From: Sphaerochaetaceae bacterium
GTDB taxonomy: Bacteria > Spirochaetota > Spirochaetia > Sphaerochaetales > Sphaerochaetaceae
Direction: 5' to 3'
Assembly: GCA_028532915.1 (NCBI GenBank)
Contig: JAQQAI010000089.1
Coordinates: 186,001 to 250,000, forward strand
DNA length: 64,000 nucleotides
The translations under genes and the position numbers were made by a program. Positions 44,665 through 49,658 of the stretch are shown one piece after another (position 1 is the stretch's first letter; every line of letters begins with the position of its first letter). The notes under the pieces were generated by a model that ran no database searches, was not told where the DNA came from, and saw only the letters and a program-made list of their open reading frames with translations.

Positions 44665-45453
44665 ATGGATAAATTTGACCGATTACAGCTGAAAATTTTG
44701 GAAATGGGAGAATATGCCTGCGAGAGCCAGAAGGATATTCACCGTGACTACAAGAATGACGGAAGTGTGCTTACTCAGGTGGACACATTCATCAATAATG
44801 CCCTGAGCGAACAGATCGCAGAATTGTTTCCCCGGGCGAATATCATCACTGAAGAATCGCTGTCTGACTTTGATCCAAAAAAAGAGATGACTTTCATACT
44901 CGATCCTATAGACGGCACAGATGTCTACTCGCAGGGGCTTCCTGGATGGTGTATCTCCATCGGCATCCTAGACCGCCGAAGGACAGCTGTCGGAGCGATG
45001 GTACATGCTCCCCGATGGGGACTGAGCAGAGACGAAGGCCTTCTTCTCAGGCTCGATCCCGGCTGTGAAATGATGATGAACGGAAAACCTTACAGCTCTC
45101 CTCTCGCCAAAAACGGACTCGAACAGCTCGCGATGGCATCTCATGCTCCCCGTTATGTCGATATCACCAGATTTAAAGGAAAGATCAGATGCTACGGATC
45201 GAACATCCTCCACATGATCAGTCCTCTCATCCATAATCACATACAGGGATCGATCTCGGTACCCTGCTTCGCATGGGACATCGCCGGAGCACATGCCCTT
45301 CTCTCTTCTCAGAATCTGCCGACTGTCTACAGTGACGGCAGAATATTCGAATACGATGATGCGATCCTAAGAGACAGAAAAAAATTCAACGGGATATTAT
45401 ACAGCGGAACCGCAGAGGCTGTGAGCGCCATGCGGCAGATCTTCAGGGTATGA
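44665..45453 (+). CDS. Inositol monophosphatase-family protein
   Basis: A 262-residue metal-dependent phosphatase of the IMPase/FBPase/CysQ superfamily. The metal and phosphate motifs are IITEESL (the Glu ligand), LDPIDGTDVY, and the C-terminal WDIAGAHALL. The substrate could be inositol phosphate, fructose bisphosphate, PAP or another small phosphate; nothing in the sequence decides. The ATG at 44665 has AGGAAAGG upstream. The 3' end overlaps the queuosine-precursor transporter gene by 11 bases in convergent orientation. Confidence 0.9.
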   Translation: MDKFDRLQLKILEMGEYACESQKDIHRDYKNDGSVLTQVDTFINNALSEQIAELFPRANIITEESLSDFDPKKEMTFILDPIDGTDVYSQGLPGWCISIGILDRRRTAVGAMVHAPRWGLSRDEGLLLRLDPGCEMMMNGKPYSSPLAKNGLEQLAMASHAPRYVDITRFKGKIRCYGSNILHMISPLIHNHIQGSISVPCFAWDIAGAHALLSSQNLPTVYSDGRIFEYDDAILRDRKKFNGILYSGTAEAVSAMRQIFRV

Positions 45454-46129
45454 TATTCCTGCTGTGCCATTTTTTCGCCAGATAGATGAACGGTGTATCG
45501 GCCATTGCCACCACGACCTTCAGCACGTATGTTGTAAGAAGGATCTCCCACAAAACACTCATCCCGAAGACCCCGTAGAAAGCGACGAACGTGAAGATCA
45601 CACTGTCGATGAGCTGGCTTATCATCGTGGAGCCGTTGTTTCTCAGCCATAGCAGCGAGTTGGAAGGAAAATGCTCTTTTATTCTTGCATAGGCGAAGAT
45701 ATCGTGGAATTGAGCCGCAGTATAGGCAAGAAGCGATGCGATCGCTATTCTCGGCATGACGGCAAAGATCGTTACCATACTCTCATGTACGAAATCACTT
45801 TGAGCCGGTGCGAACTGCAGAGCGAGGTTCATCATGACCGTCATGACGATCATCGAGAAGAACCCGATGGTAACAGCTCTTTTCGCATCCTCTTTCGTAT
45901 AACATTCACTGAGAATATCGGTTGCGAGAAAACTGGTCGCATAGACGATATTACCCAGTGTCGCCTCGAGTGAAAAAAGCTGAACAGTCTTGGTGACCTG
46001 GATGTTGGCGATGATCACCGAAATCGGTATCCAGATAAACAGTCCGGCCTTCCCCCAGAGGCGGAATGCCGCCATGATGAGGACGAAATTCAAAAGCAGC
46101 ATCACAAGCCACCACAGTTCATTAATCAT
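45443..46129 (-). CDS. Queuosine precursor transporter, YhhQ/VUT family
   Basis: A 228-residue inner-membrane protein with about six hydrophobic helices. The family segments ANIQVTKTVQLFSLEATLGNIVYATSFLATDILSECYTKEDAKRAV and WLRNNGSTMISQLIDSVIFTFVAFYG are clear (only parts shown: SFLATDILSE and TMISQLIDS). E. coli YhhQ imports preQ0 and preQ1; members of the family in other bacteria import queuine. It is the last gene of an ACT-THEP1-YhhQ operon, and its start overlaps the THEP1 gene by eight bases, which points to coupled translation. The 3' end runs convergently into the IMPase gene. Confidence 0.9.
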   Translation of the reverse strand: MINELWWLVMLLLNFVLIMAAFRLWGKAGLFIWIPISVIIANIQVTKTVQLFSLEATLGNIVYATSFLATDILSECYTKEDAKRAVTIGFFSMIVMTVMMNLALQFAPAQSDFVHESMVTIFAVMPRIAIASLLAYTAAQFHDIFAYARIKEHFPSNSLLWLRNNGSTMISQLIDSVIFTFVAFYGVFGMSVLWEILLTTYVLKVVVAMADTPFIYLAKKWHSRNIIP

Positions 46130-46649
46130 GTATTACCCTCTCATATGCACTGTCGGAATCAGTGCCGCTGTCGATGACTATCAGTTCATTCTCATCTATA
46201 GAGAAATATTCGCAGACCTGTGTGAGAAATTCTTCACGCACATTGAAGATGATTCTTCCCCCGAAATTCTTCAGTGCATCTGTGAAAGATGGATAGAATC
46301 CCCCTTTTTGCAGTTCCAAAAGACCTATCTCGTCGAATATCAGGTAATCGGATCCATCGCAGGCTTTCATGATCTGAGCATTAGCCCAGTCAAATGCGCT
46401 CTGATCGATGAAAAAGCATTTAAACTTCTCCCATCGGTCGTGCTGTTGTCGATCGAGGATCGTCCTTACTTCACCTGTATGCTGATCACTGAGTTGATAC
46501 ATATTCTTTTTCTGATGAGGAAGTGAGGGGACCTGTATCATGCCTCCGATGACAGCTCCGTCCAGATCGATGAGAGAACAGAGTGCGTACATGAGATGTG
46601 TCTTCCCTCCGTTCTTCTCTCCTTTGATGCAGATCAGTCTCCGTTTCAT
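46122..46649 (-). CDS. THEP1-like nucleoside triphosphatase
   Basis: A 175-residue P-loop protein: Walker A GEKNGGKT near the start, Walker B YLIFDEIGLLEL in the middle. This combination, including the EIG-x-x-EL motif, is typical of the THEP1 group, which hydrolyses nucleoside triphosphates in vitro and resembles small-molecule kinases. The natural substrate is unknown. The ATG at 46649 is nine bases after AGGAGG; a GTG one codon earlier overlaps the stop of the ACT gene. Its end overlaps the yhhQ-type transporter gene. The context suggests a role with a purine-like ligand or transport, but that is inference. Confidence 0.8.
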   Translation of the reverse strand: MKRRLICIKGEKNGGKTHLMYALCSLIDLDGAVIGGMIQVPSLPHQKKNMYQLSDQHTGEVRTILDRQQHDRWEKFKCFFIDQSAFDWANAQIMKACDGSDYLIFDEIGLLELQKGGFYPSFTDALKNFGGRIIFNVREEFLTQVCEYFSIDENELIVIDSGTDSDSAYERVIHD

Positions 46650-47308
46650 CACACCTGACCTCCTAGAAAGCTCTGCAGTACGGAAAAAGCCGCCATGGAA
46701 TCTTCCCTTCGTATGACGAAAGTGAGTTCGTTCATCGTTGAGACTATCTCATTCACGTTTATCTCCTCCCAGGCGAGTTTCCTCACCGCCTCGTATACGA
46801 TTCCCGGTGTCGACATGAAATCACCGCTGAAGACAAGGGAAAGGGCGACCAGATCACCTTTCTCATGAAGGATCTTTTCATCACGTATAAGCGATTTCAC
46901 CTGGTCGACGTATTTCTCGCTTATGGAAAGAGAGATCTCGTGAGACCCTACAGAGATATTCATAAAATCACCACTCGAAGGATTCACGAGAAAAAAGAGA
47001 TCCTTGACCTTGTCGAGAATGGAATCGCTTCGTATCAGATTGATATCGTAGATATTGGTCTTCATCACTATTTCGTACTGAAGTGGAGAACTCTTATGCT
47101 CTTTCTCCTTTTTCTTCAGCTCCTCACCGTACCGGCGTACCGCCATGATGATGGCGGAAGTCTTCACAGGTTTCCCGTGAAGTTTTTCCACGACATCCTG
47201 GATCGATGAAGCATAGTTGCTGTAGCTGAGGATTCCCTGGATCAGCATCTCATAGAGAAATGGAGTGCGGTCGATGATCCTCTTCACTGAATTACTTACT
47301 GATTCCAT
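46649..47308 (-). CDS. HTH-ACT domain protein, putative amino-acid-sensing regulator
   Basis: A 219-residue protein. The N-terminal half (about 10-75: PFLYEMLIQGILSYSNYAS, then KTSAIIMAVRRYG) looks like a winged helix-turn-helix. The C-terminal half (about 150-215: DLVALSLVFSGDFMSTPGIV, then NEIVSTMNELTFVIRRED) resembles the ACT domain of aspartate kinase, which binds an amino acid. Similar small regulators are known mainly in archaea. It is first in a three-gene overlapping operon with THEP1 and YhhQ genes, and may control that operon. No ligand can be predicted. Confidence 0.72.
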   Translation of the reverse strand: MESVSNSVKRIIDRTPFLYEMLIQGILSYSNYASSIQDVVEKLHGKPVKTSAIIMAVRRYGEELKKKEKEHKSSPLQYEIVMKTNIYDINLIRSDSILDKVKDLFFLVNPSSGDFMNISVGSHEISLSISEKYVDQVKSLIRDEKILHEKGDLVALSLVFSGDFMSTPGIVYEAVRKLAWEEINVNEIVSTMNELTFVIRREDSMAAFSVLQSFLGGQV

Positions 47309-47355
47309 GACGATTCTCCTATGCTCAAAGTGTTATCATTATCACAATCAACTAA

Positions 47356-47385: not shown

Positions 47386-47476
47386 TATTTATATGGTTTT
47401 ATGACCATAACAGATGATATATACTGTATTTTTGTTGACTGAATATGATATTCTGTACATTGAAGGAGATTATGGT
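47386..47476 (+). promoter_or_regulatory. nrdR upstream region with two small palindromes
   Basis: TATGGTTTTATGACCATA (47392-47409) is a 6-bp inverted repeat with a six-base spacer. GAATATGATATTC (47441-47453) is a 6-1-6 palindrome just after TTGACT. A possible -10 TATACT lies near 47421. A strong NrdR box was looked for and not found. Confidence 0.45.
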
Positions 47477-47941
47477 ATGTTATGCCCACATTGCGGTCGT
47501 ACAGATGACAGAGTTCTCGAATCCCGCCAGAACAGCAGCGGTTCGTCCATCAGACGCAGAAGAGAATGTCTGTCGTGCGGTTACCGGTTCACAAGTTACG
47601 AACGGATAGAAGAAAAACCCATCATGGTCATAAAACGTGATAAAAGAAGGGAGCCGTTTGATCTGAAGAAGATCGAACGGGGTATCAGAATCACCACCGA
47701 GAAGAGAAATATCAGTCAGGACACCATCGAGCGCCTGCTTTCAAAGATCGAAGATGAGATCGTCCTTTCGGCGAGCAACAAAGGTGAAGTGCATGCCACG
47801 AAGATCGGTGAGATCGCCCTGAAACATCTGTATCAGGTCGATACGGTCGCATACGTCAGATTCGCATCGGTCTATCGGGCTTTCAGCAGTGTGGACCAGT
47901 TCATCGAGGAGATCGAAAGGATCACCGACAAGATGAAATAA
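47477..47941 (+). CDS. nrdR: Transcriptional repressor NrdR
   Basis: A 154-residue regulator of ribonucleotide reductase genes. The N-terminal zinc ribbon (CPHC at 3-6, CLSC near 31-34) is followed by an ATP-cone that senses ATP/dATP (from about residue 48: IMVIKRDKRREPFD). The start is the ATG at 47477, eight bases after AAGGAG; earlier open codons are not conserved. It ends three bases from dgt on the other strand. With dgt it forms a pair that both act on deoxynucleotide supply, although they are transcribed convergently. Confidence 0.96.
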   Translation: MLCPHCGRTDDRVLESRQNSSGSSIRRRRECLSCGYRFTSYERIEEKPIMVIKRDKRREPFDLKKIERGIRITTEKRNISQDTIERLLSKIEDEIVLSASNKGEVHATKIGEIALKHLYQVDTVAYVRFASVYRAFSSVDQFIEEIERITDKMK

Positions 47942-49104: not shown

Positions 49105-49163
49105 AGATACCCCCTGTGAACTTTTTCCGTCATTACTTCCATAACGGCTCCAATAATGATATC

Positions 49164-49658
49164 ATGTTTTACATGCTGATACTACTTGTAGCGATCATAA
49201 CGACATTCATCTGTTTTCTGAGTATCATCGCCTCTGTGCGCTTTCTTTTCACGAAACAGGGGCTGTTCTGGCTGATCCCGCTCGTTCTGTCGGTAACCTT
49301 TCTCATCATGAGCATCTCTCCTCTGGTTCTCGTTGCCACACAGATGATCGACGGCAGTTATCAGGTGTCGATATCACCCGACCGGTCGGTTCGTGAGGTA
49401 GTTCCTCTCATCATCGTCCTTCTGTGGTATACGATGATCATTTCATTCAGATATGCTCTGAAACTGGTGATACCTGACAATACCTATTTCGAAAATAAGA
49501 AGAAGAATCTGGACGAAGCTCAGTATATCCAGAAGAAGGAACGGCAGAAATACCTCATTCAGCAGATGAAACGCAACAAGAAGAAGATAGACATCTCCCG
49601 GGAAGTAGCGGGAACGACCTATCCTATCAAATGGGTAACCCTCTATGATGAACACTGA
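49164..49658 (+). CDS. Unknown membrane protein with basic C-terminal tail
   Basis: A 164-residue protein not matched to a known family. Three hydrophobic stretches (about 1-25, 34-60 and 83-103) are followed by a strongly charged helical tail rich in Lys, Glu and Gln (KKNLDEAQYIQKKERQKYLI). The tail probably lies in the cytosol. The start is uncertain: a GTG at 49116 is in frame, the ATG at 49164 leaves more room for a promoter after dgt, and neither has a clear ribosome site. It overlaps the start of aroK by 14 bases, so it belongs to the aroK-aroC-XPB operon. Confidence 0.6.
   Translation: MFYMLILLVAIITTFICFLSIIASVRFLFTKQGLFWLIPLVLSVTFLIMSISPLVLVATQMIDGSYQVSISPDRSVREVVPLIIVLLWYTMIISFRYALKLVIPDNTYFENKKKNLDEAQYIQKKERQKYLIQQMKRNKKKIDISREVAGTTYPIKWVTLYDEH

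Follow-up and report, generated by a model that had tools for sequence, protein, structure and literature searches.

A gene for a predicted lysine-pathway regulator with tandem ACT domains heads an overlapping trio with a THEP1-like NTPase and a putative queuosine-precursor importer

In the window (the whole 64,000-nucleotide stretch of Sphaerochaetaceae DNA that was analysed), three genes follow one another on the minus strand. The first (46649..47308, 219 aa) encodes a winged-helix (wHTH) protein with tandem ACT domains, a predicted lysine-biosynthesis regulator referred to below as the ACT protein. It is followed by a gene for a THEP1-like P-loop NTPase (46122..46652, 176 aa counted from GTG 46652; an alternative start is ATG 46649) and by one for a VUT/QPTR (COG1738) transporter (45443..46129, 228 aa), a probable queuosine-precursor importer. 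If THEP1 begins at ATG 46649, its start overlaps the ACT stop by one base (TGATG), and the THEP1 stop overlaps the VUT start by 8 bases; minus-strand open reading frames and family profiles bear out this trio with its one- and eight-base overlaps, which an earlier note had described. A predicted palindromic operator (47331..47346) is located 22 nt upstream of the start codon of ACT. The divergent neighbour, with which ACT has a common upstream region, is nrdR (47414..47941, plus strand; TIGR00244, 169 bits), while a gene of the inositol-monophosphatase (IMPase) family (44665..45453, plus strand) lies downstream of VUT in convergent orientation. The arrangement of the trio is not due to chance, since the block of nrdR, ACT-THEP1-VUT and IMPase is syntenic in most of the ~30 relatives examined. 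An Rfam scan of the window returned a tRNA alone and no riboswitch or other RNA family; a sigma-70 promoter scan at the locus gave matches at chance level, none of them at the ACT promoter. Elsewhere in the window (49116-49655), an MPN565-like membrane protein is encoded between a dGTPase-like gene and aroK/aroC, a placement also seen in the relatives L042, L043 and L152.

An EM search upstream of 92 non-redundant ACT genes, with palindromy imposed on the motif model, revealed a 16-bp palindrome with the consensus TGTTATTATAATAACA; its log-likelihood was 569, compared with 29-37 in six shuffled sets. Sites of at least 8 bits precede 86 of the 92 genes, at a median of 34 nt before the ATG and for the most part 17-52 nt upstream of the start of ACT, and two copies 19 bp apart are often present, in spirochaetes, SAR324 and archaea alike. 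The window's own ACT operator (47331-47346; TGTGATAATGATAACA on the minus strand) scores 17.6 bits and was recovered with zero mismatches at G000:C89:233331-233346. As a specificity control, sites of at least 10 bits were counted: they were found before 81 of 107 ACT genes versus 7 of 807 other genes and, with regions common with ACT left out, upstream of none of 44 THEP1, 36 VUT and 28 nrdR genes.

The N-terminal 65-75 aa of the ACT protein match PF24367 (DUF7523) at 35.2 bits, above the curated cut-off; the match spans the first 67 positions of the 158-position model. The C-terminal part matches ACT_7 (0.0004) and the aspartokinase ACT region (NF005159, 6e-7), and a family profile search found no amino acid kinase domain (PF00696) in the protein. 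The predicted structure, of moderate confidence (pLDDT 84.7, pTM 0.55), has an N-terminus made up of helices only, and two ACT domains. When this model was used for a fold search, the best 50 PDB matches were all aspartokinase regulatory ACT pairs, many of them lysine- or threonine-bound; searching PDB sequences with the ACT profile gave no match.

A profile scan of named genomes yielded 80 ACT loci, 19 of which are not beside nrdR. Eighteen of these 19 adjoin divergently transcribed lysine genes, the one without lysine neighbours being L164. They comprise six loci from Spirochaetia (L095-L100), four from SAR324 and other bacteria (L103, L104, L106, L111) and eight from DPANN archaea (Woesearchaeota, Nanoarchaeota, Aenigmatarchaeota and one further), and the archaeal ACT proteins group together in the tree as a single supported clade. 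The lysine genes concerned are dapB/dapA/dapL/lysA, asd, aspartokinase (lysC) and class I LysRS, with the aspartokinase and class I LysRS assignments confirmed. In Sphaerochaetaceae the ACT gene is parted from the dap genes, a point that speaks against the link to lysine. In genus g22 (L053 1935-3046, L054 5011-6128), nrdR and ACT are co-directional and touch or overlap, with asd close by in L053.

Scanning ten whole genomes gave 18 distinct exact matches to TGTKNTWATNATAACA. Fourteen of them are found at ACT (five) or at dapB/dapA or asd (nine); among the 17 of 18 site neighbourhoods that were read, those of L182, L187 and L199 contain no recognised lysine gene. All three exact sites of the window's genome are at ACT or dap loci, with L181 in the dapA-dapL/dapB intergenic region and L197 (G000:C93) upstream of a second dapB. 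This second dapB (L197 1547-2662) carries a fused ACT region of aspartokinase type (TIGR00036 at 1-248, aspartate kinase models at 246-370). Sites with one mismatch, which according to controls are partly background, include asd in G100 (L191) and dapB-dapA in G077 (L186). No Rfam match to a lysine riboswitch (L-box) or other RNA was obtained in 17 lysine and VUT loci. Two further observations concern these neighbourhoods: a one-mismatch operator lies upstream of an NhaC-type antiporter gene, possibly for a lysine transporter, in G021 (L185 1-1383, G021:C32), and genera g1 and g20 encode a second HTH-like protein, which may be another regulator, beside dapA/dapB (L197 1-381, L184, L188).

Computation thus yields a conserved regulator-operator pair, an operator in an autoregulatory position and lysine genes as targets. 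Because gene contexts, ACT fold and operator point to lysine, we read the ACT protein as a lysine regulator and not, as the earlier note had it, as a sensor of an imported ligand; most likely it is an autoregulated regulator of lysine biosynthesis, as predicted from sequence. The explanation that we consider quite probable is that the ACT protein regulates the lysine (aspartate-family) pathway through its own and the dap operators, while THEP1 and VUT are carried on the same message and have other jobs. The N-terminal helical domain would bind DNA and recognise the 16-bp palindrome, and the two C-terminal ACT domains of aspartokinase type would have lysine, or an amino acid related to it, as ligand, as gene context and ACT type suggest. 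Through the operator at 47331-47346 the regulator would act on its own promoter; its further predicted targets are dapA-dapL/dapB and the second dapB in the window's genome, and dapB-dapA and asd in relatives. Since the sites are just before the start codon, repression, presumably by the liganded regulator, would be the likeliest mode. THEP1 and VUT are probably translated from the ACT message, with putative co-transcription from the ACT promoter; VUT would import preQ1/preQ0 for queuosine salvage, as gaps in the pathway suggest, and THEP1 would be an accessory NTPase that this salvage does not require.

The ligand of the ACT pair could also be threonine or some other amino acid. The regulator might govern a wider programme, that of the aspartate family or of peptidoglycan (meso-DAP), and respond to threonine or DAP instead of lysine; this has some appeal as asd, common to the threonine and methionine routes, is among the targets and the closest ACT folds include threonine-bound aspartokinases. 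However, class I LysRS and lysA neighbours and the dap sites favour lysine, and we regard the wider programme as unlikely.

The order of the window was sampled with 139 genomes of one family (its named relatives being Sphaerochaetaceae), 75 of them rated good. Of the 139, 122 contain ACT, 129 VUT, 133 tgt and 131 queA, and 103 gave a match to the THEP1 profile. Many Sphaerochaetaceae genera have the trio, and so do other Spirochaetia, so that it recurs beyond very close relatives, as the earlier proposal would require. It also breaks up in several ways. ACT-THEP1 occurs with no adjoining VUT in genera g2 and g11, in G116 and G022 and, outside the family, in G480/G486; ACT-VUT occurs with no THEP1 in between in G077, G082, G023, G025, G028 and G125. 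ACT is found without adjacent THEP1 in g7, g10, g12, g14, archaea and SAR324, and several g11 genomes, as well as family f20, have THEP1 with no ACT beside it. In f20 (L205, L206, L208, L209) the order is THEP1-LPP20-lipoprotein-VUT with no ACT within ~5 kb, and L200 (family f60), near a contig edge, has THEP1-VUT alone. THEP1 evolves much faster than its companions, its mean column identity being 44% versus 76% for ACT and 69% for VUT.

The transporter scores 166 bits with PF02592 and 216 bits with TIGR00697 (cut-off 50.95), and 57.5 bits with the E. coli YhhQ model NF008406, below the cut-off of 252. Members of QPTR transport preQ0/preQ1 or queuine (PMC5372724, PMC11130926). All 75 good genomes from this order carry tgt and queA, and 73 of the 75 carry VUT. 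The queC gene is practically absent: QueC is convincing in G088 (8% contamination) and G121 only, and the best match in the window's genome (E 9.7e-4) was taken as background. With tgt and queA in every good genome and QueC nearly absent, queuosine must derive from an imported precursor, and VUT fits this role. It is therefore a good candidate for the importer that the earlier note saw in it, and probably imports a queuosine precursor. A preQ1 riboswitch or linkage to queuosine genes is frequent for QPTR and not required; at the VUT locus there is no Rfam match and the neighbours are not queuosine genes. A second VUT in the window's genome (C51, L076 7287-8604) overlaps an SGNH/GDSL hydrolase gene, and the two VUTs may therefore divide the labour. 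In genus g2 (L077 11816-13170, L078-L080), a divergent VUT paralogue overlaps a RaSEA-like radical SAM gene ~7 kb or less from tgt; we take this to be a candidate queuine-salvage pair, QueL-like. A queuosine regulon was considered and rejected for lack of an operator at the tgt loci read (L075, L033, L034) and at separate VUT/THEP1 copies; none was found at the second VUT (L076) or at the VUT/radical SAM pair (L077) either.

The NTPase matches PF03266 (NTPase_1) at 33.9 bits (cut-off 23.9) and contains the motifs GEKNGGKT (Walker A) and LIFDEIG (Walker B). In the PDB, the THEP1-family profile finds 1ye8 (4e-8) and human NTPCR (8e-6), and the predicted structure (pLDDT 95.7) has a RecA-like THEP1 fold with 1ye8 and 2i3b as best matches (TM 0.70-0.72). 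By profile and modelled fold it is a true THEP1. Four good genomes with VUT, tgt and queA (G017, G029, G063, G077) have no NTPase_1 match and two others (G031, G069) have THEP1 and no VUT, so that, judging by gene content, THEP1 is not needed for queuosine salvage. Its neighbours elsewhere are varied. In several Spirochaetia a MobB-family or MobB-like gene is divergent from THEP1, namely in L095 (8847-9906), L096 (2053-3151), L204 (4107-5158) and L205 (5331-6421), with Pfam confirming the identity in L095 and L204. A THEP1 subgroup lies beside a FecBCD-type ABC transporter in L213, L216 and L218, where PfkB kinase and Indigoidine_A/PsuG-like genes accompany them, and also in L211 and L212. With MobB next to some relatives, an ABC transporter next to others and unrelated genes next to yet others, position yields no consistent substrate for THEP1. 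The earlier note proposed that THEP1 acts as a kinase on the imported ligand; position is the sole positive evidence for this, and the proposal is not supported, given the four genomes without NTPase_1, the two with THEP1 and no VUT, and the varied neighbours. For A. aeolicus THEP1, nucleotide kinase activity could not be confirmed and membership among kinases was argued against (PMC1079890).

THEP1 might instead partner the ACT protein, for instance by modulating this lysine regulator in dependence on NTP, with VUT as a passenger; the stop/start overlap and the pairs kept without adjoining VUT in g2, g11 and G480/G486 speak for this, but each gene occurs without the other next to it in the lineages listed above, and the Walker A motif is altered (GPVNGKKT, GPVNSRKT) in the otherwise intact THEP1 genes of L005 and L011, which makes the partnership improbable. 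We give an equally slim chance to a combined scheme in which the lysine-sensing regulator, THEP1 as its NTP-dependent modulator and the importer share one message, and lysine status sets queuosine-precursor import and tRNA modification. Least probable of all is a dedicated queuosine unit, in which VUT imports the precursor, THEP1 phosphorylates or processes it and the ACT protein senses it and controls the set: the overlaps, the likely importer and the ACT-less THEP1-VUT neighbourhoods of f20 agree with it, but the lysine ties of ACT, the uncoupling of THEP1 from VUT in both directions, the operator-free tgt loci and separate VUT copies, the g2 case of another VUT paralogue paired with a radical SAM gene close to tgt and the disputed kinase status of A. 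aeolicus THEP1 all oppose it. Since THEP1-VUT neighbourhoods exist without ACT in f20, the two may have a common role, and these together with L200 keep a weak version of the link alive. The overall interpretation in the earlier note thus survives in its importer and in the recurrence of the trio, and not in its ACT sensor of an imported ligand or its THEP1 ligand kinase.

Returning to the lysine regulator, the ACT protein appears to be a switch for lysine genes that had not been described before, with an operator common to spirochaetes, SAR324 and DPANN archaea; no paper on this regulator or its operator was found among open-licence PMC papers. An unnamed family thereby gains a predicted role and a concrete predicted operator, and this may explain how lysine genes are controlled in spirochaetes in which no riboswitch was detected. 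The same regulator-operator pair is found in bacteria and DPANN archaea despite their differing transcription machineries. The substrate of THEP1 should not be read from this operon.

Several known systems can be set beside these proteins. VUT resembles QPTR/YhhQ (COG1738) by its TIGR00697 score of 216 bits and the salvage-type queuosine pathway of the genome, yet it scores under the NF008406 cut-off for E. coli YhhQ, and its substrate is putative. The NTPase has the fold, P-loop and DEIG Walker B of THEP1 and human NTPCR (1ye8, 2i3b), but shares ~14% identity with them, evolves fast and has no constant partner. The L-box, like the predicted ACT regulator, acts on lysine biosynthesis genes, and also on transport genes; it is, however, an RNA element, and ACT-regulator loci gave no Rfam match. 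Desulfovibrio LysX (COG1378; PMC545781), a predicted lysine regulator, is likewise an HTH protein whose gene adjoins a lysine gene and has an autoregulatory palindrome, but differs in HTH family (COG1378) and in its 20-bp operator, GTGGTACTNNNNAGTACCAC. The best fold and family matches are the regulatory domains of aspartokinases (PDB 3c1n, 3ab2, 2zho), with the same tandem ACT pair in a matching fold; compared to these enzymes, the ACT protein has no kinase domain and carries a helical domain of DNA-binding type in its place.
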